From positions 1 to 54,087 of the IMG/VR virus record IMGVR_UViG_3300046777_000758: a DNA stretch of 54,087 nt, one strand, 5' to 3'. Origin of the DNA: a virus. The notes beneath the pieces are model-generated. The model made no database searches, was not told the origin of the DNA, and worked only from the letters and a program-made list of their open reading frames with translations. Shown piece by piece: positions 15,287-44,973 of the stretch (the first letter of the stretch is position 1; each line of letters opens with the position of its first letter). The position numbers were made by a program, and so were the translations under genes.

Positions 15287-15287
15287 T

Positions 15288-20322: not shown

Positions 20323-20335
20323 CATACCTTTCTAA

Positions 20336-20983: not shown

Positions 20984-20995
20984 TTTATACCTTCC

Positions 20996-22070: not shown

Positions 22071-23287
22071 TACAGCTCCCATTCTTCGCTCCATTTTCCT
22101 GTTTCTAGGTTCCATCTTAAATAGAAACCAAATTGTGTTGATCTTCTTACTTTTCTTGATACTACTTGAAATACATCTGAGTTGTATTCACGATGAATTG
22201 CTAATACTAGGTCGGCATCGTAAGCCAATTGCTTACTCCATGCAACCTCTTCAAGTTCGGGTGGTCTTTCAGCATGACCATCAGTCATTGTTACTGCTGC
22301 TACGTCAATGATTGGTATTCCATTCTTAACCGCAATACGCTTGAATGCTTTAGACAAGTTCTTAGCTTTTTCTGTTTCATTCTTAGCACCACTAGCGTCA
22401 TCAAATAGTCCATGATAGTCAAGGATTACCATGTCGGGATGATATTGGTCAATCTTAGCCTGAACCATGTTTTGGTCAGCAGTCTCAAGACCCTCTGAAG
22501 TAACCAAGTAGATTGGATGTTTACCTTCAAATGTTTTCTCAGCCCATTTTTCATAACTGTCAACAATGCCTCTGTTGGCTTTAACAAGGTCTGTATTTGT
22601 AAAGTGACCCTCACCATTGTTTAACAATGTGTCCAGTCTCTGCCCCTCTTGCTGTTTATTCATTTCCAATGAAATGATGAGTGGTCTATAACCTGCTCTC
22701 CATGCATTGGCAGCGAACAAACGAGCAATGAAACTCTTTCCAACACCTGTCCAACCTAAAAGGATAACAAAGTCACCCGGTTGCCAACCACCAAAAGATT
22801 TATCAAGAACGCTAATGCCACTTGGAATTCCTGGTATATCCCTAGCCTCTTGCTTGGATCTCTCACGCAAATCTCCAGCTCTGTCTTTCCATTCTCCAAC
22901 CAAATCTGTGTCTTTAAGACTGCTGGAAAATTTATACAACTGAGATGTTGATTGCATGAGGTATGCCATTGCATCTTTTGGTCCCATATCTTTCAATAGG
23001 TTATTAGCCTTTGAAATAATCTGTCTTGTCTGATACGAAAGCGATTCTTTTTTCGCTTCATCAACATAATAAGTTAATGGTTCAGGCGTATTGATAAATT
23101 CAAAGTCTGGATAGTGATGCTTTACAGTATCTTTAGATGGTGTCTTTTTGTACTCATCATAATGCTGTACAACAAAGTTCCAAATATCACGATACTCAAC
23201 AAAGACATTTTCAATGCCCTCATTTACAGCACTAACATAATCACCAGAATTAAGTAAGGAGTTTATTACCCTTAACTCATAATTCAT
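22070..23287 (-). CDS. DnaB-like replicative helicase
   Basis: This is a 405-aa RecA-fold helicase. Walker A is GWTGVGKS (178-185), preceded by SFGGWQPGDFVIL. Further motifs are LIISLEMN, then VILDYHGLF with the Walker B D290, and a late arginine-rich RKVRRSTQ. The first 120 residues are helical and resemble the N-terminal domain of DnaB, including a possible collar for primase contact. It should form a hexamer that unwinds the fork for the DnaE-type polymerase. It overlaps the genes on both sides, consistent with a tightly packed replication operon. Confidence 0.9.
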   Translation of the reverse strand: MNYELRVINSLLNSGDYVSAVNEGIENVFVEYRDIWNFVVQHYDEYKKTPSKDTVKHHYPDFEFINTPEPLTYYVDEAKKESLSYQTRQIISKANNLLKDMGPKDAMAYLMQSTSQLYKFSSSLKDTDLVGEWKDRAGDLRERSKQEARDIPGIPSGISVLDKSFGGWQPGDFVILLGWTGVGKSFIARLFAANAWRAGYRPLIISLEMNKQQEGQRLDTLLNNGEGHFTNTDLVKANRGIVDSYEKWAEKTFEGKHPIYLVTSEGLETADQNMVQAKIDQYHPDMVILDYHGLFDDASGAKNETEKAKNLSKAFKRIAVKNGIPIIDVAAVTMTDGHAERPPELEEVAWSKQLAYDADLVLAIHREYNSDVFQVVSRKVRRSTQFGFYLRWNLETGKWSEEWEL

Positions 23288-26994: not shown

Positions 26995-28285
26995 CATCCT
27001 CTAGAGCCTGTAATCTAGCCTCTAAAGCGTCTATTTTAGTCATCAACATTTTAATACCAGCAGTCAAAATAGGTGTTATTTTTGAATAATCAACTTGCTG
27101 ATGTTTTGGAGTACCATCTTCATTTATTCCATCCTTTTCACCAGATACTGCATATGGAATAATTTCCTGAATTTCGTGAGCAATAAAACCATGCGACCAT
27201 TGATCAGGGTCAGATACCCAATTAAATTTAACTGGTTTTAACTTATTCAAAATTTCTTCTATATTTGAAATAATTTCAATATTTGTTTTTAATCTATAAT
27301 CAGAACCTGTATTGTAAGCTACTGCTGTATTTGATACAGTAATACTTGCAATTGTAGAACCTTTTCTTCTAAAAGTAAGAACATCCTGTGCAACATTATT
27401 ATTTGTAGTTTCATTTAAAACAAGACATGAACCCGGTCTAGTAAATGTTGCAAATCCAGAATTTGATAACCAACCTCCAGATGAATTAGCACCACCAGTT
27501 GATTGGTTTTCGCTAGTGCCAATACCAGCACTTGTAGTAACAAAAAGTTGATCAATGTTTGCTTCACCTGTAATATTTAAATAACTAGACAAGACACCAG
27601 AAGCTTCTAGAGATGTGGTTTTATTTGCTCCATCAATGTCACTTGTTAATGTAATTCCATTAGAATCAATTAACACATCATAATAATAATCAGGAGTAAG
27701 AAAACCAGCAGGGGTATATGTATGCAGGTTCATCACTCCATTGCTATAGAGTGATGAATAATTGGCATTAAGAGTTGGAGTTTGTCCAGCATATATAGCA
27801 GTATTGCTTAATGTCCATCCTGCAATTGTTCCAGTGTTTGAAACAATTGTTCCTCGCACTGTTGCATTCCCAAATTCTGCAAACCCATTTGAATGGATTG
27901 ACCATCCAGATGTATTTGCTACATAGTTATTACTACTAATAACATTATTAATTAATACAATATTTGCAGACAATTCTTTTGCAGTAATTGTATTTGAAGC
28001 AATCTCATTTGCCGTAATAGCATTAGCCTGTATTCGAATGCCTCTAGGATTTAGCACCCTGTCTTCAATAGCGTCAACTATAAAACTTTTAAGACTTTCA
28101 AGGTTTCTTTCCTGCATATTTCTTCTTACAGAACCCGGAGAGCCTAGCGGATACACAACAAAATCTGACATTGAGTACTTTGTATAATCAATTAATGAAG
28201 ATGTAAGGCCATCATGTTTATGACCGATATCTCTTTTAAAAATAACTTGATTTTCATTAATATTAATCTTTGGATCAATTGCCAT
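26990..28285 (-). CDS. Tail fibre or spike with S74 intramolecular chaperone
   Basis: The 431-aa product ends in a peptidase S74 domain: SDYRLK with S328 and K333 as the autocleavage dyad, followed by LKPVKFNWV, HGFIAHEIQEIIPYAVSG and a C-terminal coiled coil LMTKIDALEARLQALE. This domain helps trimeric beta-helical fibres fold and then cuts itself off. The middle contains short repeated strands typical of such fibres. I use the ATG at 28285 because GGAAGGTGG precedes it and it overlaps the upstream stop. A start at 28357 would overlap the hub gene by 73 nt. It is a strong receptor-binding candidate. Confidence 0.88.
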   Translation of the reverse strand: MAIDPKININENQVIFKRDIGHKHDGLTSSLIDYTKYSMSDFVVYPLGSPGSVRRNMQERNLESLKSFIVDAIEDRVLNPRGIRIQANAITANEIASNTITAKELSANIVLINNVISSNNYVANTSGWSIHSNGFAEFGNATVRGTIVSNTGTIAGWTLSNTAIYAGQTPTLNANYSSLYSNGVMNLHTYTPAGFLTPDYYYDVLIDSNGITLTSDIDGANKTTSLEASGVLSSYLNITGEANIDQLFVTTSAGIGTSENQSTGGANSSGGWLSNSGFATFTRPGSCLVLNETTNNNVAQDVLTFRRKGSTIASITVSNTAVAYNTGSDYRLKTNIEIISNIEEILNKLKPVKFNWVSDPDQWSHGFIAHEIQEIIPYAVSGEKDGINEDGTPKHQQVDYSKITPILTAGIKMLMTKIDALEARLQALEDV

Positions 28286-31200
28286 TAAACCACCTTCCTT
28301 AATGTAAGACTCTGAGTTAACGTATCTCCATACCCAAATTCTTGAGATATAACCCAATAATCCTGATTTGTAATATCAAAAGCATCAAAAGACGATATTC
28401 TAATTCTATCACCTAATTGAATTTTTGGTACACACATTGTATTTATTGTAATAATTGGAACAGGTTCACTCATTTTTTCAATTATAAAAGAAGCAAGTTG
28501 TTGAGCATGTTCTTCTGTTGTAATATATGGGCTTTCAATTACTAATTCTTTTAATCCATATTTACGAACATTTTCTGATATTGATTCCTTTTTCTCAGTT
28601 ATCTGTGCATTATTTAATGTTGCAACTACTGGCACTCCATAAATTGCAAAAGAAGATTCTATATTTGATCTAGGATCTTCGCCCTGAACATATATGTGAC
28701 TATCGTATGCAACATTAGAAGAAGCAGCAATTATTAATCTTGCTGTATATGGGTTGCTTTCAAATTTAACAATATCAATTGTATTAGGTTCATCATCAAC
28801 AATGCCTGTTGCTATTGGGAACAGTACTGTAGCAGCTGGTTTTTTATCATATGTAACTTCATAATATCTAGCCTCTCTAATTTTTGTATTATTAGCCGCA
28901 ACATTTCCAAGAATTGGAGTTCCAAACTTTCCTCTCTCAACATTCAAGAAGTAGTTTTCACTCTTAGAACCATATCTGACGATTTCAGTTTGATCATCTT
29001 TTGTAAAAGCAAGATAACCAACATTAGGAAAAACAGGGTTGCTAGTTGTTGATACATGAATTCCTGTATCTGAAGTTAGGATATTTGTTACAAGTCTTAC
29101 AACGCCTAAAGTAGTTTTATCGTTCAATGACCATAAAATTTCTGAATCATTAGAAAGCTTGCTAACCGATGATATTTTGACAACAACCTTATTTGTCTGT
29201 AATTGAACATTCAAATTTCCGTCAACAATGTTAGTTGAATCACTAAAAGTATATTGAATATTAGCATGCTGATCTATTGTAGTTTCAAAAAATCTATTAT
29301 AATGCTCATACCTTGCGTAACTTTCTTCATCAATATAAAACCTTCCTAAATCTGCTAATGTAATTTCATCAATAGCACCTCGAATATGTTCTTGCTCTGA
29401 ATAAATAAATGGGAATGTAGCAGTATATGCTATTTTTGAAGATATATATCGCTCTTTAATTTCATCATTTGTTAAACAATTTTTATATATGGCAAACTCA
29501 TCAATAATAAATTCCCTAGTTGTAGAAGGGGCATTTTCTGTACCAGCACTAAATGATGCACCCCTTCCTCCAATCGTCAAATCAGATGAATTTAGAACGA
29601 CATTACCATTTACAGTATCAGTATCTTTTAAATCTCCATTTATATAATATGACAAAAGATTTGTATTTGCATTATAAGTTACTGCAATATAATAAAATTC
29701 AGACTGAAGCAAGTCTGTTGTGTCCGAAACAGATGCAGTTGTTGTTGTAGGGCCTGTGGTTTTTATCTTAAAACCATGACTTGAATTGTCGTTATAAAAA
29801 AATTCAAAACCATTTGCTGGGTTACTATTTGCCCATGATGATAGGTACTCTCCATCGCCAGTTGAGAAATGACCATCATTAAATTTAGCAACTAATTCAA
29901 TTGTAAAATCTTCTTCAGTTATGGCTATTGAATTATGATTTGGAACTCTTATATATGCACCATCAATCAATAAAATTCCCTTATTGCCATCTCCAGATTG
30001 AATTTCACTTGAATAATTCAATTGAGCATTAGCCTGTATAAAAGCATCGTTTTGATGGTGATTTTCTGCTATATCATCTCTAGAATATGAAGATGGTACA
30101 GTACCAGTTAAGTTTCTTGAACCCAAGCCATCTCTTGCGACAACAGATCTAAAACGAGATGCCGGTAACAGTGTCTTTGTTGCAGAAATAAGACTATGAA
30201 GACTAATTGAAAAATTAGCATCTCCATAACCATGAAAAAATTCAATCCTCAGCCTGTATGGATTACCTGCAATCAGCGTAAGAGGAATTGACTCAATTGA
30301 TACCGATACATTTTCTTTATTAGATTCACCAATCAAAAGGTCATCAAGATATATTCTTCCACCGCCATAAGCAATATCTAAAACCAATTTTTGAGAACCA
30401 TTATTTACCGGAAAATAGTAGCCATCTATGACTCCATTAAAATACTTTGTATACGTAACTGAGTTAAGTGTGCTTTCAAAAATATAATTAACTAAATTAA
30501 CACCATATTTAATAGGAGATAAGATGTCAGTATTATCTGGAATGCTAACATCTGCTGAGTTAACTATTTTATCGGGAGCAGCATAGATAGCTTCACCTTT
30601 AATTCTTTCTTCAACTGATATATTCTTTTCAAGAACATCTGCTTTAATTGTTTTATAATTATATTCAGAGCCAGCTCTGGCACCCCAAAATCTTGCTCGT
30701 AATCCCGGCTCTAATGTTGTTGCTACACCATTTCTGTCAATTGAGTCTTCGCTGAATGAATACCTCAGAACTCCGCCAAGTTGAGATACACCTTTGCTAT
30801 ATGGAAGATTATGTATAAAGTCTGCTTTGGGAAAGTTTCTTCTCATCAAAAGATTCTGAACTGCTTCACTCATCACTTTATTTTCAAGAAGGAAGCCATT
30901 AGTCAACTTCTTTTCAGTTAAGAACTTAGACCAATCACTTGCTTGCATTGTGACGGTCATAGAACCTGTATCAGCAGTCCATTCATCAACATAGAATGTT
31001 CCCATTGCTACATATTCATATGGATCAAAATGAATTAAAGAACCAGCGGTATGAGTGTTTGCATCTGTTTGCTGAACACCTCTTTCTGTAACACTTAATG
31101 TATTTGTAGAAGTTACGGCATTACATAGAATAATTTCTCTGTTCTCTTTGTCTGGGTTTATTGTAATAATAAAATTATTACCAGAACCTCCAGATGGAAA

Positions 31201-32220
31201 AATATCCGAATTCATTACTGAGATTGTGTTTGCAGAATTGCTTAAATTTGATCTCAGTGTCGTTGTTAAAAGAGTGTCATTTGTTTTTTTAATTCTCCAT
31301 CCAGTTGAAACAGTAACTTTCAAGTCTTTCTTCATATATTTTCCATATGTAGAAGAATTGTTAAAAACACTCCAGTCTTTATTGGCATTATCCAATTTTA
31401 TTGTAATTTTAGGTGTCTGAGTACCACCGATAGGAAGACTGCTTTCATGCACATCCCTCGCTCTTGACACAGAGTAATCAATTACATAATCAGTTATATC
31501 GACTTCAAAGATTGGAGAGACTTCATGTATTCTTGCATAATCTAAACCATTTTTTGTTGAAATTATTGTTAATTCAACTCTTGTTGCAAGATAGTTTGAA
31601 GATATGGCATTAACGCTATTTAGATATATGTCTTTATAATAATCATCATCTTCAAATACAACTGTTTGATCAAGAATATCAACTAATGATGAATTTTTAA
31701 CTTTTATTCTAAAAGATTTAACTTGACCATAATACTCAGAAGTAGTTACTCTAATCTTATTAACTTTTCTTTCTTCAAATGCATATGTTATAACTGGGGA
31801 TGACGCAAAGACACCGTTTGCTTGACTTCTTGTTTTAGACCACCACCCAAATTCATAATCTCCATCAAGATTATTATCGGTATCAAGAGTTGTTGGCATA
31901 CAATGCCAACTTCCATCTGCTGTAATAATTTTCCCTTTTTTATCTAAGGCATCAGTTACAGCCCATGTAAAAGACTCTCTTTCATAGCCGTTAATGATTT
32001 GTTGCTCTGAGAAGTAGTAGCCAATTGAGCCTTCTGATTTTACAATATGAGCATCAGAGTTAGTAATATTTGCATTAGCAGTTAAAACATTTGCAAGAGT
32101 AATGTGACGACTATCTAATAAGTCAATAATAACCTTTGGTTTAACATTTTGGGCAGGAGATTGTATAGCAGAATTAAAATAATTTGATAAATTTGCTCCA
32201 TATGTATTCTTTGTTAACAT
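28285..32220 (-). CDS. Tail hub-like protein with PA14-like and LamG-like domains
   Basis: This is a 1311-aa virion protein. Roughly: residues 1-430 are beta-rich with a discoidin-like start. Residues 500-680 look PA14-like (LRARFWGARAG, then FNGVIDGYYFP and IYLDDLLIGES). Residues 745-925 look LamG/concanavalin-like (FTIELVAKFNDG, IDEFAIYKNCLTNDEIKERY). The last 120 residues (LGDRIRISSFDAFD, YGDTLTQSLTLRKV) resemble the hub part of tail proteins. PA14 and LamG domains usually bind carbohydrates, so this protein may join tail-tip structure and cell-wall binding. The domains are inserted before the hub-like end. No hydrolase motif is seen. Confidence 0.75.
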   Translation of the reverse strand: MLTKNTYGANLSNYFNSAIQSPAQNVKPKVIIDLLDSRHITLANVLTANANITNSDAHIVKSEGSIGYYFSEQQIINGYERESFTWAVTDALDKKGKIITADGSWHCMPTTLDTDNNLDGDYEFGWWSKTRSQANGVFASSPVITYAFEERKVNKIRVTTSEYYGQVKSFRIKVKNSSLVDILDQTVVFEDDDYYKDIYLNSVNAISSNYLATRVELTIISTKNGLDYARIHEVSPIFEVDITDYVIDYSVSRARDVHESSLPIGGTQTPKITIKLDNANKDWSVFNNSSTYGKYMKKDLKVTVSTGWRIKKTNDTLLTTTLRSNLSNSANTISVMNSDIFPSGGSGNNFIITINPDKENREIILCNAVTSTNTLSVTERGVQQTDANTHTAGSLIHFDPYEYVAMGTFYVDEWTADTGSMTVTMQASDWSKFLTEKKLTNGFLLENKVMSEAVQNLLMRRNFPKADFIHNLPYSKGVSQLGGVLRYSFSEDSIDRNGVATTLEPGLRARFWGARAGSEYNYKTIKADVLEKNISVEERIKGEAIYAAPDKIVNSADVSIPDNTDILSPIKYGVNLVNYIFESTLNSVTYTKYFNGVIDGYYFPVNNGSQKLVLDIAYGGGRIYLDDLLIGESNKENVSVSIESIPLTLIAGNPYRLRIEFFHGYGDANFSISLHSLISATKTLLPASRFRSVVARDGLGSRNLTGTVPSSYSRDDIAENHHQNDAFIQANAQLNYSSEIQSGDGNKGILLIDGAYIRVPNHNSIAITEEDFTIELVAKFNDGHFSTGDGEYLSSWANSNPANGFEFFYNDNSSHGFKIKTTGPTTTTASVSDTTDLLQSEFYYIAVTYNANTNLLSYYINGDLKDTDTVNGNVVLNSSDLTIGGRGASFSAGTENAPSTTREFIIDEFAIYKNCLTNDEIKERYISSKIAYTATFPFIYSEQEHIRGAIDEITLADLGRFYIDEESYARYEHYNRFFETTIDQHANIQYTFSDSTNIVDGNLNVQLQTNKVVVKISSVSKLSNDSEILWSLNDKTTLGVVRLVTNILTSDTGIHVSTTSNPVFPNVGYLAFTKDDQTEIVRYGSKSENYFLNVERGKFGTPILGNVAANNTKIREARYYEVTYDKKPAATVLFPIATGIVDDEPNTIDIVKFESNPYTARLIIAASSNVAYDSHIYVQGEDPRSNIESSFAIYGVPVVATLNNAQITEKKESISENVRKYGLKELVIESPYITTEEHAQQLASFIIEKMSEPVPIITINTMCVPKIQLGDRIRISSFDAFDITNQDYWVISQEFGYGDTLTQSLTLRKVV

Positions 32221-33209
32221 TATGCCTCTTCCAAACTTAAATTAAGTTGATACAAGTATACATCTTCCGAAAGGTATCTTCTTGACAAAGTTTCGCTATA
32301 TGTAGTGACAAATACAGTATATGTTGTTTCTGTATATGGGGTTGTGCCCGAAGCATCTAAATTTATGACTTTTAATTCATGTGCATCAGGATCTTCAGCA
32401 ATTGAACTTATGTAATCCCTGCCATGTCTAGAGTCTACGGTATCCTCCATTGCATTTGGAACATTGGCCCAGTTTATTGTAAAGTTTTTTCTACCCGAAC
32501 TTGTTGCTCTTTTATAATATCTACTTTTACGATTATTCCAATTTGAAGACTCTACAAAAACCGGTGACAAAGACTCTTCAAATGTTCTGCCATGATCTGT
32601 TAATGGTTTGCCATCAAGAATAAGAAGTGTTCTATGCGATGATGAATCAATGTATGAAGGGGAAAATCTAATTGGGGCATTTATAATTACTCTAGACTGT
32701 ATAGAGACTTGTTGTCTCATGTAACTAATCAACGTTGAATGAAAAGCAGGAATTGCAGTAATATTAGATGATGCAGATGCTTTAGCAATCTTTTTTGATG
32801 TTGGAGTTACAGTTGTTACAATATCAGCAAATGCAATAGCTGATGTAGTCTTTTTAACTGATACAGAGATATTTGAAGATACTGATACTGATGCAGAAGC
32901 GCTTGTTATTTTTTGAGTGCTTACTGATATTGTTGAAGTAACATTTACAACTGATAATACATGTAGAATCTCTGAGGGTATTGACTCAGATATTAATTCA
33001 ATTTGAATTTCAGATGCTGCTCCTATAACCTCTATTGCAGTGACACTATTAGAAGAACTTATTGAAATTGATGAAGATGCAGTAGCAACCCTAACTGCCG
33101 ATGTTGTTACATCAGAATTTATAGAGACTGTTGATTGAGCATTGGTTTGACCAATATAAAAGTCAATATCACTAAGTTTCGGACCTATCTCATAGTATTC
33201 ATCAGCCAT
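32220..33209 (-). CDS. Minor tail protein with Ser/Val/Thr-rich repeats
   Basis: The 329-aa product has two parts. Residues 20-150 are low-complexity, alternating Ser, Val, Thr and Ile (for example VSVSSNISVSVKK), probably an extended beta structure. Residues 180-329 form a domain with LLILDGKPLTDHGRTF, SRYYKRATSSGRKNFTINW and DSRHGRDYISSI. This domain is clearly paralogous to the next protein (33209-33628), which has matching ITEHNRK, RRYIKKNKKTFKLSF and GRAGRDFLKSI. The genes follow the tape measure, where distal tail proteins are usual. Confidence 0.65.
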   Translation of the reverse strand: MADEYYEIGPKLSDIDFYIGQTNAQSTVSINSDVTTSAVRVATASSSISISSSNSVTAIEVIGAASEIQIELISESIPSEILHVLSVVNVTSTISVSTQKITSASASVSVSSNISVSVKKTTSAIAFADIVTTVTPTSKKIAKASASSNITAIPAFHSTLISYMRQQVSIQSRVIINAPIRFSPSYIDSSSHRTLLILDGKPLTDHGRTFEESLSPVFVESSNWNNRKSRYYKRATSSGRKNFTINWANVPNAMEDTVDSRHGRDYISSIAEDPDAHELKVINLDASGTTPYTETTYTVFVTTYSETLSRRYLSEDVYLYQLNLSLEEA

Positions 33210-33628
33210 TATTGCTCACCAATATCTATTGTAACATCATAATATGAACAAGAATTTTCAATATCCCTTCTGACTAATTTCTCTGTATAAGAGTTAACAA
33301 AGCATGTATATGTCTCAAAATCATCTATCGGAGATAGTTTTATAGAAACTGTTACTGTACCTCTTGTGTTTGAGATAGACTTTAGAAAATCTCTTCCCGC
33401 CCTACCGTCAACAGTTTTATCTGTTCCATTTGGCAAATAGGTAAAGCTAAGTTTAAATGTCTTTTTATTCTTTTTAATATATCTTCTATTAATACCACGT
33501 GATAACTCAATAGATGAGCCAGATTGCTGTGTTTCAGTTACAATTTTACGATTATGCTCAGTTATCTGAGTGCCATTAATTGATAGAAGATGTGTCAATC
33601 CTGTTTGCTGGTTTTGTATTGCTGGCAT
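33209..33628 (-). CDS. Minor (distal) tail protein
   Basis: The 139-aa product consists of one beta-rich domain: LLSINGTQITEHNRK, RYIKKNKKTFKLSFTYLPNG and GRAGRDFLKSISNTRGTV. It is the first gene after the tape measure, the usual place of the distal tail protein. The same domain recurs at the C terminus of the next protein (32220-33209), so the two probably arose by duplication and may stack as rings at the tail tip. The exact family is not certain. The start overlaps neither neighbour by more than one base. Confidence 0.65.
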   Translation of the reverse strand: MPAIQNQQTGLTHLLSINGTQITEHNRKIVTETQQSGSSIELSRGINRRYIKKNKKTFKLSFTYLPNGTDKTVDGRAGRDFLKSISNTRGTVTVSIKLSPIDDFETYTCFVNSYTEKLVRRDIENSCSYYDVTIDIGEQ

Positions 33629-36600
33629 TATAGACCTCTGTTAATTCCTCTATATGTTGAGATTGTTGTATTGTTCAATCCAGCAGCCTTTTGATTTTGC
33701 GGGGCTACATTAATATTATAGTCTTTCATCATTGACTCAAACCAAGCCTTTTCACCAATAAAGTTGTCAACATAAATGTGAACGGTTGATGTTGAAGAAG
33801 ATTGAGGCTGAACTGGGCCGGAATAACTTGGCGACTTAGGAGCATTGAATCTCATTTGATTGAGGGCTTCAAGAGCAGAAAGACCCAAGTTCTTAACAGC
33901 GCTAGAGTTAATTACATACTCTCCACCGTGAAGCATTGCTGGAACGCCTTGTGAAGCGAATGCGCTGACGAAACCACCGTTAGCAAAACCTCTGATTAAA
34001 CCGCCATTAAAGTTTCCTCTTGGCGGTCTGATTGGATATGAATCTGGTAGTCCCAATACAAGATCACGCAATTCAGATTGTTTTGGAATTGGGACACCTT
34101 CTTGATCAAGCAATTGTGACCCCATTGTTTTTCTGGCTTCTTTTAGTGCGTTTGTAATTTTTTCTCTTCCTTTAAAAATTTCAAATCTAAGATTAACATC
34201 ATCGTAAAAATTTGGTATTGAAGCCAAGTCTTCTTCCAAAGCCTCATAAAGATACCCGTGATAGCCAACTGAACTAAAGTCCATCACATTCGCAGAACCT
34301 CCAGTTAAATATTCTTCTAGGGTAGGAACATGAACTTTAATATTGGGGTCTAAAACTTTAAATATTTCATTTAATTTATGACCTAATATAAATGAGTGAG
34401 GTGATGTTGAACCGGGGAATATATTAGTAATTCCTTTAGGTTTTAAAACTTTTTCATAAACATATGCCATTACATTAGTCAAATCAACTGAACCAGGTAT
34501 ATTGTCAGACTTTTTGAGCATATCAACTTTCAATCCGTAACCTTGCTGACTTAACCACCTTGGTAAATCATCAATGCTGAACATAAACTCAACAGTTTGA
34601 CCATAGGAACCGCTATTACCAAGTTTTCTCCACATTTCGACTGTATTACGACCAGAGTCATAAGAAGGAGATCTATGAAACAACTTTGATTCATCTTTCA
34701 TAATTTTTCCAATTACTGATTGACTAAGACCTTGTTTTGGATTATAGAGTCTTGCTTTTCTAATTGCTTGAGAAATTTGAATATTTTCAAGAATAGTTGA
34801 TCTCATCTTATTTTTAGGAACTTTTCCATTAATAAGACCTGTTAGCAGATATTGATGCATCTTATCAAAATCTAAATGGCTAAAAAATCGAGGAGGAAGA
34901 TTGTCAATATCGTCAAAGAATCCAAAATCAACAAGACCTGATTCCATAAGTTTTCTCTGGAAAACCTCATCTGGCAATCCAAAACTCTTAAACAACCTCT
35001 GAAAGTCTCTATAACCAATTGAAGGAGCGCCGATATTTGATACCCTTCTATAATTACTATTAAGCCTACTAACAATGTCTAATGCAAGATTAAACTGTTC
35101 TAGACTAGTGCCTTTTTCCATTCTGTTTCTTATTAGTCTTGAAACCCTTTCATTATAAAAATCAGGAGATGATGGCAAAAACGAATCCATTGTGCCCCAG
35201 CTACCAAATTCAAGATAATTAGTTCTACCTAGTGAGGCACTTGCCCCAATTTGATTTAATATTTGACCCTGTTCTTGTGAGAATGTTGGAATCAATCCAG
35301 AAGGCATTGGAATTCTTGTACCGGGGAAGAATTGATCAACATTTCTCAATGTAGCAACATCAGTAAGTTTATCAAGATTCTTAAGTGTTTTAATCTTTGA
35401 TGGCATTGTAAGATAGCCAGAGTTTGGTGCAAATACAGTTGTTGGACCAATTAATCCAAGACCGGCAAACAAAGCATTAAGACTTCTATCACCAGTGCTT
35501 CTATTCTTATCCATAGCCTTAGTTGCTGCGAACGCACCACCAACATATGGCAAAAGCATTTCACTAGCAGCTTTTGAATATGCAAAACCAGTTCTATAAG
35601 CTGGATTAGAGAGTGGATCTCTAGGGCTGAATTCCGTTTGTCCACTGTCAAGTTGTTGAGCCGACTTCAAACCAGCAAAGAACCCATTTCCTGAGCCATA
35701 TAGCGCTTCTTGCCCTTTCTTCTTAAAGAAACCACTAATTGATGAAAGGCCTTTTTGGAAAATATTCTTCTTACTATCTTTAATTTTCTGCTGGGCAATG
35801 TAAGTAATGCTTTGAAGATCCCAATTACTATACTTAGATTCAAACTTTCTAAAATCAGCAGCAGATGGTGTCTTAGTATTCTTTTGACCTTTTACAAGAC
35901 CGCCAGTTTCGTAACCTCTAATAAGACCACCATTAAATACTTCATCAAGTGGAATTCTATCTATTATACGGCTAGGAATTGGAGGAGGAGGAAGAACTGA
36001 TTGTGGTGATAAAGATTCATTATGAACAGTTCTCATTGTTCTCATAAAGATAGCGCCAGCAGGTGTTTCTAAGAAACGTCGGAAAGGCCAAGAAAGAAGG
36101 CGAAATGCATTTTCGTCTATGCCTGTTGATGATGCAGCCCTTCCTGCCATCCATTGCAAATCTCTCATATTTCTAGCGTTAGCGCTATAATCTTCATATG
36201 CTTTTTGCCATTCATCTGCTGACTTTGGAACCCTTCCTGCTTTCTTTGCTTCTTTAGATGCTTGCAATAATGATTTTTCACCAGCCTTGACTTTTGCTTT
36301 TGCTAAAATATCTTTTATTCTATTAAAATTGTTCAAAAATATTTCTCTATCCAACTCTGTTTGAAATATCTTTCCACCAGTTAGCATGTTTGGAAATTCT
36401 ATATTGTTTGGCCTCCAATTTGATAATGGAGGTGTGATAACTTGAACTGATGGATCTAGAAATTCCATCATTGCGCTAAGTCTGTCAGAAAGAGCATATG
36501 AATATTTTGAATAGCTCCCATTAGTAACGGTAGTAACATTGTGCTTTTTAATTATATTCATATAAACAAAAGCTAAAAGTTTTGAAACATCAATTTGATT

Positions 36601-39600
36601 AAAATCAGCCAGAGAGTAAAGACCACCAATCTGAAGATTCCTTCCACCACCAGTGCCAGCATTTGAAACAGAAAAGTTAAATGAAGCACTTGGGAATAGA
36701 GCATTTTCTGGTATAAAATCCATTTCAGGTAAGCCTAAATATTTAGCATCTGATTGTTTAGTTGCTCTCCTCATAATAGTTATCAAATAGTTGCCAATAC
36801 CATCAGCTGGATTAAGACCATAGGGTGTAAAATCAACACCTATAGCCATATTTTCTGAAAAAGTTTTTTGTAATTTTTCTAAATTTCCTTGCTTTAACAA
36901 TTCCATAAGTTGTTGTCTAACATTCAAAGGGAAGTTGTCATATTCAGATGAAAGATTTGACATCTTAAATCCGCTATAATAACCAGATTTTGATTTTTCA
37001 ATTCTATCTTTTATACTTGCTATTCTTGAATCTCTAATATATTTTATTCTTTGTTGTTCATTTACCTCATTTAATATAGCAAGATTTTCTGGTGTCAAAT
37101 TTGCAACTCTATTCCCTGTGCCAAAAGAACGTCTTATATTTCTCTTAAAAGGAATCAGGCTTGAAGCTAAATCGAATGTTTTTTCTCTTATTGAAATGCC
37201 AAGTTCGCTATAAACATCTTTTAATGCTGGGAAAACACCGCCAAACATGTTGTTAATATCGCCAAGCACACTCTTATCTCTTAAAATTTCTGGCTTTCCA
37301 AATCTTTCTCCAAAATATTCAGCAGTCTTTGAAGTATATTTTGTGCCAAAAGGGCCTTGATCTGCATAAGTATAGAATTTCTTAGGTGCTAACTTAGGAT
37401 TCTTAATTAATTTTTTAATATCAGTTATTTCATTACCAATTTTGACAGATATTGGATATTTTTCATTAATTTTATTGCTCAACTTATAATATGGATTCAA
37501 CATTGTCTTATATATTGAACGAGGAAGTGAGAATTTTTGCCTAGTTTCAAAGTCCAAACCTGATTCATACGCATTGCCAAAAAATTTTCTTACTTTTTTA
37601 CCACCATATACATCAGGCCAAGGCGGTAGAGGTTCGCCTCTAGTAATAAACTCATTTTGGATTCTCATAGCACGTTGAAATGCCATTTCTTTTTGATGAT
37701 AAAAATATTCAGGATAACTCATATCTTCAAGAAGACCACGTGAAGATGGGCGCATACCCCTTGTCTTTCTCATTAAAATGACATTCTTTAAATCTTGTAA
37801 TTCTTTATATTGTTTATATAGTTTTGGATTCTTATTAAAGAAGTTAGATTTCTTAGCCCAGTATGCATCGGCTAGTGTTTCACGACCTGCTTTAGTAAAT
37901 AATTGAGAAGTTGTTTTAAATCCAGATTGAGTCCCTGTTTTAAATTTACTAAGTCCAGATTTAATTCCAGATATTCCAACAGCAGGATCAAGACCAAGTA
38001 GAGCCAACATATCTCCACCCATATTGGTTGCCATGTATGCACCAGAACCCTCTTTTGCAATTCCAGTCTTATCAAGACCATAATAAGCCAACAAACCGCC
38101 TGGGCTTAAAATAGTTCCTTTACCAAGAATTGACCTATTCTGAGAAGCCTCTTTCATAGCTCTTTCTGAAGCAGACACTGGTATGAAGCCAGCAAGACCA
38201 AATGGCCCTCTATCTAGCCCCATTAATTCTCTATAGTCTTTTCCTGTTGTAACCATCTCCTTGGCAGCTTTTAATGTCTGACCCAAGGATGTTTGCATGA
38301 AAGGACTTGCAATCAGTTGGTTAAATAGACTTCCTTTAGCCTGTGACTCTCCAAGCCCGGCTTTACCAAGAAGGGTTGAGCCTAAAGCAACTGCAAACTC
38401 TGGAGTAAATGAAACGCCAGCAAGGAATGATGAAACACCAAGTTTTGCTGTATTTGCAACGCCAGTGGCAACTTTTCCTAATGTCTTATCCCAAAGAGAA
38501 ACTTTTGCATTTTCCGGCTTATAAGCCAAATCACTAAATGGATTTAATACCTTTCTTTGATTAGCAACATTGTATCCACTTTCTTTCATCGCCTTTATTC
38601 TGGCTGATGTTTGATCCATCATTGCTTGATAGTTATATTTGTAAACTCCTTCTTGATCAAATTTTCTAAAGTCTGCGACTGAGGATAGTTTCTTTTTACC
38701 CTTTACAAGACCACCAATTGCCAAAGATTGAAAATCTTCAAATTCCGACATGTCCTTGTATTTTTTAACAGGTTTACCATCTTTAATCCAAATAGGCTTT
38801 GAGAATGGCATAGTAATTTTATCAAAATCTTTAGATTTTTTAGTAAAATATTTAGTGTATGCCTTCTTTGCCTCTCTAGTGTTAAAACCACCACCTATTG
38901 CTCCAAAATTATAAAAAGGATTATATCCAAGCTGTGCTTCATAGGAGATATTAGGATTAAAATTTTCAGGTAAAGGTATTTCTTTTGTTTTAGATCTGTA
39001 ATTTTCAATTATCTTATTATTTTTATCATAAAGATTCTTTCTATCAAAACCATGACTTCCTGTTCCTAATGGCTTGTTATACCTAATAGTGCCAGCAGGA
39101 AAATCTGAGCCTGGTGCAATTTTTCTAATCCAACCGAATACAGCAATTCTATTTTTAACAACCATTTGCTGGAGTTTTGTTGCTTGATCCGCAGTCTCTG
39201 CAAATTGCTTTCCGCCATAATCAATCCATGTATCGTCATTTGTTCTAAGACCACCTCCCATCCAGCCATGAGTTGTGTGAACTCTGCCTTTCCAATCAGC
39301 TAGCGTACCCCAAGTTTTTCCTCTACTTGATTCTGCTAGTGCGATAGCAGTCAAATATTCTTTTGTTAGTCCTCCGTTATCTTGTTGCCATTTCCATTCT
39401 TGATATGCAGGGTCTGAACGATCCAGATTGTGTGGAATTACATAATTTCTACTAGCCTTGCCTTTAACCAAACCACCAATAGCGTAAGGCTTTGGCTTAT
39501 ATGTTCCTTGGTTAATTTGTTGCATCATTCCCCAACCATATTTCTTAACGGCTGAGTTTCTTACAACATATTCACCACCATGAAGAATTGCTGGAATGCC

Positions 39601-42600
39601 TTGTTGAATTGGGCCCTTTGTTGGACCACCCATTGCATATGGCATACCACCCTTAAAGAAACCACTTCTTCCGCTCTCATCAGTTCTTGCTTGTGCACCT
39701 GCACCCTTTGTAAATAATCTTCTGTTATTTACAATGTATGCATATACAAGTTCTGAGTTTGTTGTAATTTGATCTTTGTATCTGTTTGCAGCAACAACAG
39801 GGAAGAAGTCCTTCATACCCTCATCGTGACCACCAAGAAGAACTGCTGAGGATGCAATTGAGCTAACAATACTCTTAATTGAGGTTACAAGCTTCTTACC
39901 TTCTGCTGTGCCTCCATACTTGTCGCTAAGGTATTTATCAGAATATTGCTTAATTTTTCCAAGATCAGCATTAGCAGTTGCAATTGAAACTTTATTTCCA
40001 TCCTTAACGCCATCATTGTTATACCCCGGCTTTGTAGTACTACCTCCACCTGTTCCTGGTGTTGTATTGTTAGAACCTGCTCCAGTTGTACCTACAAGGT
40101 TCTGGTACTTATTATAAATGTCGTAAAGTTTTTGGAAAGCTGCTGATTTTGTATCAATAATAGTTGTAAGAGTATTTGTTAAACCTTGATACTTTCTTGT
40201 CAAAGCATTAATGCTTTCATCAATAGTTTTATTCCATACACCTGTTGGACCAAATGGGTTATTATCTGCCAATGTCTTTGAAATTGCAGCCAGTGATGAA
40301 GTTAACGGTCCAGTTGCATTAACTCCAAGAGATGATAGTGCACCTCTAAATGAGTCACTAAATGTTTGCCCCATGCTATTTGCAATTGCTTTTGCACCAA
40401 TAAAACCATTTCCACCCTCAATTAAATTATTCAACATAGTGTTGAATTCTTCAGCAGTCGTTGGAGGGAATTCAGTAATCTTCTTTGCAGCGTCTGTAAA
40501 CAGAGTAATCATTGAATCAAAATACTTAGATGATGTATCTTTAGCATCTTTAATTGACTGAATTAATTCATTTCTATTTTCTTCCGCAACTTCTCTAATT
40601 CTATCTTGATTAATTTGATTAATGTTTTCATTATCTTGAACTTCTTGTCTGGCAGCAGCATCAGCAATATTTCTTGCTTCATCAATCTGACCAGCGTAGA
40701 TGGCCATCGCATAACTTCTTCTGCTGTTTGTTCTATTAATAGACCTTTCAAGTTCTGCTTCTCTTAACTTGTTTTGATATTCCTGTTCTCTTGTTAGTTT
40801 TTGCTCAGCTTTTCCGACAGCCTCAATGCTCTTAATTTGATTATCATAAACAGTAAGAGCATCTTCTTTTTGCTTCTTTAATGTTTCTTGTAATATATCA
40901 ACAACATTTTTCATCGTATCTTTGATACGGTCTGCTATTTCTTGCTGTAATTCTTTTTTAATTTCTTTTATTCTGGATACTAATTTTTCAGCACCTTCTT
41001 GAGCGCCTTCATCAAAACCACTTCCTACAGAACTTGTAATTGCCTCTTGTGCATCATCAGTATCAACTTCAACACTATTTTCATCTTTACCGCCAAAAAG
41101 ATCAAGTTTACCTTTGCTCTTCTTAACTCCAATTTTTGATATCTTATCAACCGCGCCTTTTGCTTTATCAGCAACGCTATCGATACCTCTTTTAATTACA
41201 TCACCACCAGCATTAACTGCATTTGCAACAGTTCTAACTGTGCTTAAGTATGTGTCTCTTGCTGACTTTAATCCACCAAGAGCAGCATCACCTACGCCTC
41301 CCAAGAATCTTCCTAGCACCGGTATTCTTTTAACTTGTCCTAATACCCATTCAACAAAACCAAAGAACAAATCTGTTGCCTTTTCAATACCCCAAGCCCA
41401 AGCTTTCATAAAGGCTGACGGAAGTTCAAATAGAATATTAATGATTTGCTTTATTAAGAATGCGATAACTTCTATTCCAAGTTTTGCAATTCCACCAAAT
41501 ACATTGGCAAAAGCGCCAGCAAGAGCCTTTAGCGCATCACTCCATTTACCTTGGAATATGTTAACAACAAATTTAACTAGATTAACAACACCGTAAAGGT
41601 ATGGCTGAATGATATTTTCAACCAACCATTTGAACATATTTGCAACAAATTCTAATACCTTTGTAAGACCATTAAATGCATTACCTAGACCTTGCACAGC
41701 ACCTTCAGAATCCTTTGCACCATTACCAAAAGAACTAAACAAATCAATGAAAGGTCTTGCAAGAGATTCAATTGTTTGCTTTAATGTTCCAAAAATCTTC
41801 TTAAGCGTTCCAAAACCAGAAGCACCAGCTTGCTTGAACTTGTCCATGTTCTTCATTACAAGCATTACAGCAACGCCAATTGAAAGAATAATAACTCCAA
41901 TACCGGAAGCTATGAGAGTAATCTTTGTTAACTTGATTGCATTATTGACAAGACCAAATGATTTTGCAAAGCCCATAACCCCTGCTCTCATCTGTGCAAA
42001 TTTGCTTGGACCAGTTCCTGTGAAAGCAAGAGTTTCAATTGTTAAAGCTTTTTGTGCTGCTTTAGCAGCGCTTAATGCACCAGTGTATGATGTTACAGCC
42101 TTACTTGGAAGCGCTCTGATTGCTCCCATAGCAGCATCAGATTTTGCTCCTGCTGTATCAATTGCTCCTAAGATTCTTCCTCTTATTCCACCTCTAGCAA
42201 TTCCAAGCGCTCTTTCTTCAGAGATTTCACGACCACCTCTTCTAAGAATTCCACCACCCAGCGATGATGATGTTGAGGTTCTTTCAATACCAGCGGCTTC
42301 AAATGCTCTTTGTCTGAGATTAATTGCTGAACCAACATCTTCACCAGAAATTGATCTATAACCCATTGTTCTTCTGAGAATGCCAGCCCTTTGTTGGATG
42401 TTATATCTTGTACCAGAAGCACCACCTCTTCTAAGCCCCATTTGCTCCATTGCAAATTCTTCTTCGGCAAAAGCTTTTCTTGCTGCTCTGCTTACTCTGA
42501 GTGTTGGATCTTCAGCATCAATGATTCCACCTGCTGTTCTTCTTAATCTTCTTGTTGCAGCAGGACCACCTACATATTCAATTGCCTCTGCTCCAGCAAC

Positions 42601-44973
42601 GCCGGGAAGAAGACCTCTTGAAACTTTTTGAGACATTACTTCTCTTGTTAAGCCAATTGGAGCAGTTGTTTGCTTTTGCAAAACACCCGACATTGTTCCA
42701 AGTTTTTCAGCCATTTTTGCAACTGGCCCTTGACCACTTGCAAGCGTTGCAATAAATGTTGCAAACTTACCATTAGTATTTACAACAGTATCTCCAACTG
42801 CTTGCAATGGTTTTGTAAGTCTAAGCATTGCATCTCTACCAGCCAATGCTTCAACTGACATTGTTTTAAGACCTGGTATAAATCCAAATAGGACTTTACC
42901 AACGCTTCCCATTGCAAGTCTAAATTGACCAAATACGAAAATCAATGGACCAATTGCAGCAGTAAGACCTGCTACTACAAGTGCAGTAGTTGAAATTAAT
43001 TTCTTTGTTTGATCATCTAGATTAGACCAAGCATTGTAAAGTTTTGTTGAAATCTCTACAAGTTTTTCTATTGTTGGCTTTATATTAGTTAATAGATCAG
43101 CTGCAAATGTTTTAAAGTTGTTTTTAAGAATTGATAACTGTGTATCAAGAGAGCCAAGAGCTGCTTCTAATTCTCTTTGAGCAATCTGAGAAGCGTTAGC
43201 AGCACCTGCAAGTTCAATAAACATTGCTCTACCAGCCTCTGTTCCAACTTGACCAATTAAGTCTTCTCCACCTTCTCTTTGTGCTTTAAGAATTTCTTTG
43301 CTTAATTCTTTTCTAACTTCTTTTGCAGCTTTAATTTGTTCTGCTGTAACTTTTTCTGCTAAACCTTCAATTTGTTGACCTGCTGTAGCAGTTGCAATTC
43401 TTGCGATAACTCCAATATCTCTAAAGCTATTAACTAAAGGAAGATTTGCTTTACCTGCTTTGTTTGCAGAAGTAACTGCTGTGTTCGCAAAATCTTGTAA
43501 TTTTTTTTCTGCACTTATTGTTGTTGGAATTGTTTTGTCTTTTAATATGGCATCAAAAGCAGCCAACTGTGCGATAGCAACTTCCATTCTTGGACCTTGA
43601 CGAACACCAAAGACCTTTGAAAAGAACTCCATTGCGCCTTCTTGACCAGCAGCACTTTTCTTAATTTCATTAAAACCATCTACAAGTTGCTGAATGGCAT
43701 CTAAGCCAGTTCCTTTAACAAGATTAAAGTTTGTATTATATTCTTTTGATAACTGCTTAAACAATTCTGCGTTCTGTTTAGTTGGTGCAGTTAGTCTCTG
43801 CAATGAAACCTTAATTGAGTTAGCAGAAGCACCAACTTCAAAACCTGCTGCTTTCATTGGTGCAAGCAGTGCGCCTGCTTCAGTCATTGACAAACCAAAA
43901 GATGTAGCAGCAGCAGCAACTTCAGGGAATGCGTCTCCCAAGTCTTTAAGTGTTAAAGCAGTTACGTTTTCAACAGAGTTGAACAAGTTTAATTGAGCAG
44001 TTGCTGCTTTGATAGCAGCAGTTTCTCTTTCACTAAATGAAAGTCTTTTTTGCCCCGGCCCCTTTGACGCTTCCTGTTCTTGAATTGCTCTTTGTGCTTG
44101 GAAGTAAAGGCTCTGTACAAGATCTTTTGCAGCTCCAATATCCATATTGCCAAGTTTTTCAGTCTTGGCAGTAAGCTCTGTAATAAGAGCAATATTGTCC
44201 GTTGTTTGAATACCTAATTCAGCAAAGTCTCCAGCAAGACCGACTGTAAGACTCTTTGCAAGACCAAACTTTGTACTTGTTGTAGATAGTTGCTTATCCA
44301 AAGCTTGATAACTTGCAACCATCTTATCAAGTTGCACATTTTGTTCTCTAGTTGCTGACGCTAAATCAACGCCCATTTTCTTAGCAGCAGCATCAAGGTT
44401 AGGAGCAACGCTTTCAAGAACCTTATTAAGTCTTACGAATTCTCTGTCAATAGCAACAAGAGTTTGTAAGCCAACCCTGCCGAACCCCATGATTGGAGTT
44501 GTAAGACCGATGATGAGGCTTCGACCTACGAACTGTGCATCTTTACCAAGTCTCTTCTGCTCTTGCGATAATGATTTTAAATCTTCAACAAGAGCTCGTA
44601 CTCTAATTCCTTTTAAAGAAGCCTCATACGCCTTTAGGTCGGATACAGCAGCCCTTCTAAACTCTGCTGAGGCACCTGTAGCGAACTTATAAGATGTTCC
44701 AAGACCAGAAATTTCTTTTCTGACTCTGTTCATCTCATTTGTAAGAACTGCATTATTTCTTGCAAGTTCCGAAACAGATTTTGCGTGATTCTTTAATGAT
44801 GAATCTGATGAACCAATTGCAGCAGATAGCGCACGACTTCTTGCATCCAAATTTTTCATTGGATTTGTTGCACCCTGAACAGCCCTGTTCAGTTGCTGCA
44901 TTGCATTACTTAAGTTATATACCTTTTCGACACCCGAAACGGCTATACCTAATACAATATCTACATCACTCAT
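33628..44973 (-). CDS. Giant tape measure protein with Rpf-like and duplicated cargo segments
   Basis: At 3781 aa this is the tape measure of the tail. Residues 1-160 are coiled coil, and about 170-480 is the typical phage tail tape core (SMTEAGALLAPMKAAGFEVG). Hydrophobic spans occur near 655-700, 1008-1041 and 1170-1210, with a long charged coiled coil near 1350-1495. A GGEYVVRNSAVKKYG motif lies near 1795 and a variant near 3680. Residues about 1868-1945 resemble an Rpf muralytic domain, with catalytic-type E1881 (ALAES) and THGWMGGG, DDTWIDYGG, ADQATKLQQ. Two related blocks, from about 2086 and 3022, are separated by GGLVKG or GGLIRG linkers. By the usual 1.5 angstrom per residue rule a fully helical protein would span about 570 nm, but much here is globular, so the tail is probably shorter. 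Confidence 0.93.
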   Translation of the reverse strand: MSDVDIVLGIAVSGVEKVYNLSNAMQQLNRAVQGATNPMKNLDARSRALSAAIGSSDSSLKNHAKSVSELARNNAVLTNEMNRVRKEISGLGTSYKFATGASAEFRRAAVSDLKAYEASLKGIRVRALVEDLKSLSQEQKRLGKDAQFVGRSLIIGLTTPIMGFGRVGLQTLVAIDREFVRLNKVLESVAPNLDAAAKKMGVDLASATREQNVQLDKMVASYQALDKQLSTTSTKFGLAKSLTVGLAGDFAELGIQTTDNIALITELTAKTEKLGNMDIGAAKDLVQSLYFQAQRAIQEQEASKGPGQKRLSFSERETAAIKAATAQLNLFNSVENVTALTLKDLGDAFPEVAAAATSFGLSMTEAGALLAPMKAAGFEVGASANSIKVSLQRLTAPTKQNAELFKQLSKEYNTNFNLVKGTGLDAIQQLVDGFNEIKKSAAGQEGAMEFFSKVFGVRQGPRMEVAIAQLAAFDAILKDKTIPTTISAEKKLQDFANTAVTSANKAGKANLPLVNSFRDIGVIARIATATAGQQIEGLAEKVTAEQIKAAKEVRKELSKEILKAQREGGEDLIGQVGTEAGRAMFIELAGAANASQIAQRELEAALGSLDTQLSILKNNFKTFAADLLTNIKPTIEKLVEISTKLYNAWSNLDDQTKKLISTTALVVAGLTAAIGPLIFVFGQFRLAMGSVGKVLFGFIPGLKTMSVEALAGRDAMLRLTKPLQAVGDTVVNTNGKFATFIATLASGQGPVAKMAEKLGTMSGVLQKQTTAPIGLTREVMSQKVSRGLLPGVAGAEAIEYVGGPAATRRLRRTAGGIIDAEDPTLRVSRAARKAFAEEEFAMEQMGLRRGGASGTRYNIQQRAGILRRTMGYRSISGEDVGSAINLRQRAFEAAGIERTSTSSSLGGGILRRGGREISEERALGIARGGIRGRILGAIDTAGAKSDAAMGAIRALPSKAVTSYTGALSAAKAAQKALTIETLAFTGTGPSKFAQMRAGVMGFAKSFGLVNNAIKLTKITLIASGIGVIILSIGVAVMLVMKNMDKFKQAGASGFGTLKKIFGTLKQTIESLARPFIDLFSSFGNGAKDSEGAVQGLGNAFNGLTKVLEFVANMFKWLVENIIQPYLYGVVNLVKFVVNIFQGKWSDALKALAGAFANVFGGIAKLGIEVIAFLIKQIINILFELPSAFMKAWAWGIEKATDLFFGFVEWVLGQVKRIPVLGRFLGGVGDAALGGLKSARDTYLSTVRTVANAVNAGGDVIKRGIDSVADKAKGAVDKISKIGVKKSKGKLDLFGGKDENSVEVDTDDAQEAITSSVGSGFDEGAQEGAEKLVSRIKEIKKELQQEIADRIKDTMKNVVDILQETLKKQKEDALTVYDNQIKSIEAVGKAEQKLTREQEYQNKLREAELERSINRTNSRRSYAMAIYAGQIDEARNIADAAARQEVQDNENINQINQDRIREVAEENRNELIQSIKDAKDTSSKYFDSMITLFTDAAKKITEFPPTTAEEFNTMLNNLIEGGNGFIGAKAIANSMGQTFSDSFRGALSSLGVNATGPLTSSLAAISKTLADNNPFGPTGVWNKTIDESINALTRKYQGLTNTLTTIIDTKSAAFQKLYDIYNKYQNLVGTTGAGSNNTTPGTGGGSTTKPGYNNDGVKDGNKVSIATANADLGKIKQYSDKYLSDKYGGTAEGKKLVTSIKSIVSSIASSAVLLGGHDEGMKDFFPVVAANRYKDQITTNSELVYAYIVNNRRLFTKGAGAQARTDESGRSGFFKGGMPYAMGGPTKGPIQQGIPAILHGGEYVVRNSAVKKYGWGMMQQINQGTYKPKPYAIGGLVKGKASRNYVIPHNLDRSDPAYQEWKWQQDNGGLTKEYLTAIALAESSRGKTWGTLADWKGRVHTTHGWMGGGLRTNDDTWIDYGGKQFAETADQATKLQQMVVKNRIAVFGWIRKIAPGSDFPAGTIRYNKPLGTGSHGFDRKNLYDKNNKIIENYRSKTKEIPLPENFNPNISYEAQLGYNPFYNFGAIGGGFNTREAKKAYTKYFTKKSKDFDKITMPFSKPIWIKDGKPVKKYKDMSEFEDFQSLAIGGLVKGKKKLSSVADFRKFDQEGVYKYNYQAMMDQTSARIKAMKESGYNVANQRKVLNPFSDLAYKPENAKVSLWDKTLGKVATGVANTAKLGVSSFLAGVSFTPEFAVALGSTLLGKAGLGESQAKGSLFNQLIASPFMQTSLGQTLKAAKEMVTTGKDYRELMGLDRGPFGLAGFIPVSASERAMKEASQNRSILGKGTILSPGGLLAYYGLDKTGIAKEGSGAYMATNMGGDMLALLGLDPAVGISGIKSGLSKFKTGTQSGFKTTSQLFTKAGRETLADAYWAKKSNFFNKNPKLYKQYKELQDLKNVILMRKTRGMRPSSRGLLEDMSYPEYFYHQKEMAFQRAMRIQNEFITRGEPLPPWPDVYGGKKVRKFFGNAYESGLDFETRQKFSLPRSIYKTMLNPYYKLSNKINEKYPISVKIGNEITDIKKLIKNPKLAPKKFYTYADQGPFGTKYTSKTAEYFGERFGKPEILRDKSVLGDINNMFGGVFPALKDVYSELGISIREKTFDLASSLIPFKRNIRRSFGTGNRVANLTPENLAILNEVNEQQRIKYIRDSRIASIKDRIEKSKSGYYSGFKMSNLSSEYDNFPLNVRQQLMELLKQGNLEKLQKTFSENMAIGVDFTPYGLNPADGIGNYLITIMRRATKQSDAKYLGLPEMDFIPENALFPSASFNFSVSNAGTGGGRNLQIGGLYSLADFNQIDVSKLLAFVYMNIIKKHNVTTVTNGSYSKYSYALSDRLSAMMEFLDPSVQVITPPLSNWRPNNIEFPNMLTGGKIFQTELDREIFLNNFNRIKDILAKAKVKAGEKSLLQASKEAKKAGRVPKSADEWQKAYEDYSANARNMRDLQWMAGRAASSTGIDENAFRLLSWPFRRFLETPAGAIFMRTMRTVHNESLSPQSVLPPPPIPSRIIDRIPLDEVFNGGLIRGYETGGLVKGQKNTKTPSAADFRKFESKYSNWDLQSITYIAQQKIKDSKKNIFQKGLSSISGFFKKKGQEALYGSGNGFFAGLKSAQQLDSGQTEFSPRDPLSNPAYRTGFAYSKAASEMLLPYVGGAFAATKAMDKNRSTGDRSLNALFAGLGLIGPTTVFAPNSGYLTMPSKIKTLKNLDKLTDVATLRNVDQFFPGTRIPMPSGLIPTFSQEQGQILNQIGASASLGRTNYLEFGSWGTMDSFLPSSPDFYNERVSRLIRNRMEKGTSLEQFNLALDIVSRLNSNYRRVSNIGAPSIGYRDFQRLFKSFGLPDEVFQRKLMESGLVDFGFFDDIDNLPPRFFSHLDFDKMHQYLLTGLINGKVPKNKMRSTILENIQISQAIRKARLYNPKQGLSQSVIGKIMKDESKLFHRSPSYDSGRNTVEMWRKLGNSGSYGQTVEFMFSIDDLPRWLSQQGYGLKVDMLKKSDNIPGSVDLTNVMAYVYEKVLKPKGITNIFPGSTSPHSFILGHKLNEIFKVLDPNIKVHVPTLEEYLTGGSANVMDFSSVGYHGYLYEALEEDLASIPNFYDDVNLRFEIFKGREKITNALKEARKTMGSQLLDQEGVPIPKQSELRDLVLGLPDSYPIRPPRGNFNGGLIRGFANGGFVSAFASQGVPAMLHGGEYVINSSAVKNLGLSALEALNQMRFNAPKSPSYSGPVQPQSSSTSTVHIYVDNFIGEKAWFESMMKDYNINVAPQNQKAAGLNNTTISTYRGINRGL

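Follow-up and report, generated by a model that had tools for sequence, protein, structure and literature searches.

An exchangeable cargo slot in the tape measure protein of an uncultured siphophage and its possible role in effector delivery

Results

The stretch of DNA analyzed here, referred to as the window, is the whole of IMG/VR virus record IMGVR_UViG_3300046777_000758 (54,087 bases). Our subject is one gene in it, an open reading frame on the minus strand (33628 to 44973; all parts of this gene given below are on the same strand) that encodes a tape measure protein (TMP) of 3,781 amino acids, with matches to the Pfam family PhageMin_Tail (E value of 1e-11) and to PHROG tape measure families (E values down to 9e-32). 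The protein begins with a conserved backbone (residues 1 to 1640; 40054 to 44973) that contains three hydrophobic segments and shows 74% identity to the relative L002, with a ratio of nonsynonymous to synonymous substitution rates (dN/dS) of 0.17. Its second half is, in our estimation, probably a cargo slot, distinct from an ordinary ruler. The slot comprises the 1,884 amino acids between two HGGEYV motifs at residues 1798 and 3682, and the two copies of this motif are 60 to 75% identical over 20 amino acids in each TMP compared. The slot entry (residues 1770 to 1835; 39469 to 39666), consisting of the first HGGEYV motif and the linker after it, is found in cargo-bearing relatives and in L008, whose slot is empty. 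Three units follow in the order M1 (residues 1836 to 2085; 38719 to 39468), M2 (residues 2086 to 3021; 35911 to 38718), and M3 (residues 3022 to 3655; 34009 to 35910); each starts after a GGLVKG linker, and M2 and M3 are each closed by GGLIRG. The slot exit (residues 3656 to 3781; 33631 to 34008) holds GGLIRG, the second HGGEYV motif, and a C-terminal anchor, and this 126-amino-acid block is strongly conserved (74 to 86% identity to four relatives; dN/dS of 0.07).

Scans with the TMP N-terminal region, the C-terminal block, and the leader of M3 (its N-terminal part) returned about 40 loci, designated here by L numbers. TMPs without cargo are approximately 1,880 to 2,240 amino acids long and cargo-bearing ones not truncated by a contig end approximately 2,700 to 3,780, and the size of the slot ranges from zero or 55 amino acids up to 1,884. 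Cargo is lacking from many related TMPs, in which the HGGEYV motif occurs only once; in L008, it occurs twice, side by side. The backbones of L007 and L008 are near identical (proportion of synonymous differences [pS] of ~0.15 and of nonsynonymous differences [pN] of ~0.02), and a cargo of ~706 amino acids is present in one and absent from the other. Similarly, L063 and L014 are 99 to 100% identical over ~1,500 amino acids of backbone and differ in slot contents, with a muramidase and a leader at a pS of 0.4 to 0.65 and C-terminal parts that are unrelated. In the pair L004 and L002, the backbone (pS of ~0.1) and M3 are held in common (mostly 0.1 to 0.4 across these parts), with M1 and M2 at a pS of 0.6 to 0.7, and L035 and L036 share a cassette containing an ADP-ribosyltransferase (ART)-like and a muramidase-like domain at a pS of 0.2, with neighboring parts at 0.47 to 0.79. 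Between the window and L002, the synonymous divergence (dS) of M2 is 0.13 versus ~1.1 in both backbone ends (pS of ~0.1 versus ~0.6 in the flanks); since this is about eightfold lower, M2 is a recently exchanged cassette, and the edges of the low-divergence segment lie near the GGLVKG linkers. The slot holds exchangeable cargo and is refilled by recombination, and hence near-identical TMPs occur with different cargo or with none. A chimeric-assembly artifact was considered and rejected, as the layout recurs, with long reading frames unbroken, in several independent contigs.

Two of these loci, L006 and L004, are contigs from one metagenome whose TMP pieces overlap (the end of L006 and the start of L004), and they are probably one phage. 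Another, L043, has a very long cargo of ~1,700 amino acids (TMP residues ~250 to 1950) with a partial match to L029 only.

Judged from its profile matches, M1 is an Rpf-type transglycosylase-like muramidase and the sole confidently identified domain among the cargo units of the window. When scanned alone, it matches PF06737 with an E value of 4e-7 and 31.0 bits, above the curated cutoff of 27 (24.7 bits in the whole-protein scan), and it matches a PHROG transglycosylase with an E value of 1e-7. Muramidases are also present in the slots of many relatives. The Rpf-type M1, together with the similarity of the TMP to those of Streptomyces and Rhodococcus phages, suggests an actinobacterial host.

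A model's reading of the same DNA (the original prediction) had described a duplicated block in the second half of the TMP, and self-comparison of the protein bears this out: M2 and M3 are related. By BLASTP, a domain toward the end of both units (the paired domain) matches with an E value of 4e-11 and the SxADFRK start with an E value of 4e-4; Smith-Waterman alignment scores 131, whereas shuffled sequences average 45 and reach at most 69, and a profile-profile comparison gives an E value of 2e-7. The likeness is strong only in the first 45 to 100 and the last ~120 amino acids; the middle parts either lack homology or have diverged too far for it to be detected. The motifs that had been named were all found with small offsets in position only: SVADFRKF at residue 2098, SAADFRKF at 3037, GGLIRG at 3015 and 3657, GGEYV at 1799 and 3683, and GGLVKG at 2087 and 3024, with a further GGLVKG at 1833 that had not been listed. 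The general pattern GG[LI][VI][KR]G occurs five times in the slot versus 0.0015 times expected after shuffling. The muramidase unit, the slot boundaries, and the exchange of cassettes are additions to that earlier description.

The paired domain of M2 (residues 2705 to 2880; 36334 to 36861) is homologous to that of M3 (residues 3431 to 3600; 34174 to 34683; E values of 2e-10 to 4e-11), with the motif stretches of the pair at residues 2799 to 2832 and 3500 to 3534. An AlphaFold2 model from a six-sequence alignment has a predicted local distance difference test score (pLDDT) of 73.9 and a predicted template modeling score of 0.71, and its core is β-β-β-α-β-α-β. In a Foldseek search of the PDB, ~45 of the top 50 rows were acetyltransferases, including HAT1 (probability of 0.99) and RimI (0.96). 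Among viral models in BFVD, the first match was a GNAT protein and the second a 1,276-amino-acid phage RadC/JAB protein. It is therefore likely from the model that the paired domain has a GNAT-like fold; a working acetyltransferase is unproven. A metallo-β-lactamase likeness returned by VIA-align was set aside as probably a common sheet-helix arrangement, and no such enzyme is among the 50 listed Foldseek rows. Profile matches to ribosomal protein eS24, VPS13, and RPW8 (PDB and Pfam) were at chance level.

A moderately hydrophobic leader of ~190 amino acids with a SAADFRK start (SAADFRKF in the window; 35221 to 35910) is common to M3 of the window, L002, and L004 and to the slots of L007, L012, L014, and L063. 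It matches relatives outside its own cassette type with E values of 1e-10 to 1e-29, and among the relatives the similarity reaches 1e-73. Behind this constant leader stand three mutually unrelated C-terminal parts: the paired domain in four cases (window, L002, L004, and L063), a domain that we refer to as domain B in two (L007 and L012), and an ART-like domain with a kinase-like part in L014. Domain B ('VHET...RDTIHFALNHxVxGH...NPGSLSNLYxVDT') occurs in eight TMPs of widely diverged phages (L007, L012, L016, L030, L035, L036, L039, and L040) under purifying selection (dN/dS of 0.12 to 0.22), and profile searches of Pfam and the PDB found no known relative. The slot of L040 has a glycine-zipper region that matches DUF6861 above the cutoff, and a glycine-zipper region is also seen in L039. 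In L014, residues ~2843 to 3220 hold 'HQTPLRTSSSPAG', which we take to be ART-like from its motif, followed by 'DAWLGNYDAIGYNMDNLMLD...IRIDPGASM', which we likewise take to be kinase-like; no profile match was obtained for either part.

Rates of change differ along the units. Between the window and L002, the leader of M2 (SVADFRKF start plus a hydrophobic stretch, residues 2086 to 2390; 37804 to 38718) is constrained, with a dN/dS of 0.12 (confidence interval, 0.06 to 0.23), and the middle and paired domain of M2 are at 0.72 and 0.64. Between L002 and L004, the values for M3 are 1.08 in the middle and 1.35 in the paired domain, with wide intervals that include 1, and the backbone is at 0.11 with no amino acid change in the C-terminal block. 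These rates fit a conserved carrier with fast-changing ends; positive selection is unproven. M2 and M3 had no match in the phages collection and the paired domain none in species genomes. Uncultured viral contigs are thus the only known source of the units. PADLOC gave no match.

The original prediction had also pointed to an ART-like pattern in the window, TKYTSKTAEYFGERFG (TKYTSK...). This stretch is present at residue 2544, inside a segment absent from L004, and neither an ART profile match nor the conserved R-S-E motifs were found in it, so that the suggestion finds no support in the window. An ART-like domain does occupy the corresponding slot of L035 and L036, where it is combined with a muramidase-like domain and carries all of the R, STS, and ExE motifs; in L036 it matches ADPrib_exo_Tox with an E value of 6e-5 and 22.9 bits, just below the cutoff of 23.4.

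Beyond the TMP gene, the window encodes a 1,311-amino-acid minor tail protein (28285 to 32220, minus strand) with laminin-G-like (E value of 1e-15) and PA14 (E value of 8e-6) domains, from which carbohydrate binding is probable. The tail gene downstream of the TMP gene is conserved in all nine relatives tested. Replication and modification genes occupy 12946 to 23287 (minus strand), among them those for a glycosyltransferase (12946 to 14262), a UvsX-like recombinase (14372 to 15286), a DNA polymerase (16362 to 19757), and a DnaB-like helicase (22070 to 23287). The GC skew is slightly positive (+0.04) at 32001 to 34000 and negative elsewhere.

Discussion

The view that the TMP is a scaffold carrying effector-type domains, in the manner of polyvalent phage proteins, stands as anatomy, with the slot full, empty, or refilled on near-identical backbones. 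We consider it rather probable that, in addition, the slot loads effectors at the leading end of the tape, from where they would be injected before the DNA. The TMP of phage DT57C forms a parallel trimer whose N terminus lies at the head; a fragment from the C terminus is cleaved off and stays in the tail tip, and the remainder is ejected; phages lambda and 80alpha have the same TMP C-terminal fragment (PMC10713586). By analogy with these fragments in the tip, the slot, which sits just before the C-terminal anchor, would be the leading end of the tape. As the TMP exits the tail before the DNA, the slot contents would emerge first. The M1 muramidase would then cut the wall, as in TM4, in which the TMP muramidase aids infection (PMC1796659). 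The hydrophobic leaders may assist membrane crossing, and the effector domains would arrive in the cytoplasm and modify host proteins.

Several points weigh against this proposal. Folded cargo of ~1,884 amino acids, in several copies, would be a tight fit in a tail tube of ~4 nm. Every step after assembly, including entry of the cargo into the cell, is one that we infer. No releasing metallopeptidase or papain-like peptidase was found by Pfam in the window or its relatives. The Foldseek GNAT matches to the paired domain reach an E value of 0.02 only, and the VIA-align Z scores peak at 6.8 (RimI), with metallo-β-lactamases at ~6. No Pfam, NCBIfam, or PDB sequence-profile match supports a GNAT assignment. 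The coenzyme A (CoA)-binding loop is degenerate: the pyrophosphate loop (Q/R)xxGxG/A is absent from M2, the worst case (DFNQIDV), and partial in M3 of L002 (RGNSIGSA). The full M2 model was unusable (pLDDT of 37.5), and structural interpretation was confined to the paired domain. The acetyltransferase suggestion gains support at the level of the predicted fold of this one domain and none from sequence profiles. Finally, dN/dS values near 1 can also reflect relaxed constraint.

Of the other explanations, one holds that the slot is a wall-penetration device or spacer in which only the muramidase is functional, M2 and M3 being structural ballast, there to make the tail longer or to occupy the tip, and the variety being ordinary mosaicism. 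M1 is indeed the one confidently identified domain of the window, the middle and C-terminal parts have dN/dS values near 1 that permit weak constraint, and deletion of a 114-amino-acid motif from the TM4 TMP shortens the tail by ~20 nm, which means that inserted modules can contribute to the ruler (PMC1796659). However, the units are neither repetitive nor coiled coil, the leaders (dN/dS of 0.12) and domain B (0.12 to 0.22, across distant TMPs) are constrained, an ART-like domain with R, STS, and ExE motifs is an unlikely spacer, and cargo acting as ruler would demand tails that differ by ~100 nm between L007 and L008. We therefore regard a pure spacer as unlikely.

A second possibility is that the units remain and act in the envelope, for instance, as a DNA-conducting channel or in superinfection exclusion, and not in the cytoplasm. 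This would suit the hydrophobic leaders, the glycine-zipper domain of L040, and the published tie between C-terminal glycine zippers of TMPs and membrane translocation (PMC10240207); however, it leaves nucleotide-dependent enzyme domains such as an ART unexplained, and leader hydropathy is moderate (peak of 1.3 to 1.5), which makes an envelope role improbable. Host-recognition or adhesion modules exposed at the tail tip and varying with host surfaces are more improbable still since, although receptor-binding parts typically change fast and are exchanged as cassettes, the units lie inside the TMP with a conserved motif on either side, neither ART-like nor muramidase domains are adhesins, and separate tail proteins of the window match tail fibers and carry the PA14 and laminin-G domains.

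If the loading of effectors at the leading end is correct, long-tailed phages would inject proteins by way of the one protein that is obliged to leave the tail before the DNA. In this regard, a survey of genes of the NAD/ADP-ribose network found such genes in 16% of siphoviruses and suggested that contractile-tailed phages are better equipped for injection (PMC9503650). More tentatively, the TMPs of a large group of uncultured siphophages may be a general effector delivery chassis, in which several copies of swappable protein-modifying effectors per virion, loaded at the front of the tape, would enter before the DNA and cassettes would be traded between phages in an arms race; we judge this somewhat less probable than not. 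The matched natural pairs L007/L008 and L014/L063 make ruler counting and host entry directly testable, and the conserved slot borders could be a search handle for further phage effectors.

Several known systems share features with the slot. Tde1, an effector of the type VI secretion system, has a glycine-zipper translocation region with homologues in the C-terminal regions of TMPs (PMC10240207), and the DUF6861 zipper of L040 is alike; unlike the cargo described here, Tde1 is secreted by that system, and the leaders of the window have no recognized zipper. Polymorphic toxins likewise combine a constant leader with unrelated, exchangeable C-terminal parts that are replaced between close relatives, whereas here the setting is a phage tail operon with no dedicated immunity gene: the stop of the window TMP overlaps the next tail gene, and relatives have a homologous tail gene in the following position. 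Mycobacteriophage TMPs with Rpf or motif-3 muramidases, such as TM4 gp17 (PMC1796659), resemble the window in having a small enzyme domain inside the TMP that aids infection, of the Rpf type as in M1. However, TM4-type TMPs carry single short wall-cutting motifs, whereas the window has a bounded slot of up to ~1,884 amino acids, whose leader-effector units have nothing to do with wall cutting. In phage heads, MuF-effector fusions such as the MuF-VIP2 ART of Microbacterium phage Percival (PMC7302621, PMC9503650) also place variable C-terminal effectors, including Alt/VIP2-family ARTs, on a structural chassis; here, the chassis is a tail tape measure, and the cargo consists of tandem units enclosed by two motifs and followed by a C-terminal anchor. 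The polyvalent proteins described by Iyer et al. in 2017 (PMC5512222) are multidomain proteins of an injected type, rich in ART, kinase, GNAT, and lysozyme domains, to which the muramidase and GNAT-like domains of the window may be compared, and a predicted-fold neighbor of the paired domain lies in the phage RadC/JAB protein mentioned above. They differ in that the chassis here is a TMP in which neither a metallopeptidase nor a DNA-processing domain was detected, and tape measures are not mentioned in that paper. Within the part of the literature covered, we found no paper that describes a TMP with a delimited slot for exchangeable effectors. Taken together, the closest precedents appear to be the MuF-effector fusions, the polyvalent proteins, and the muramidase-containing TMP of TM4, and, as far as sequence comparison indicates, what the window adds to them is an exchangeable slot for putative effectors within the tape measure itself, which appears to be new.

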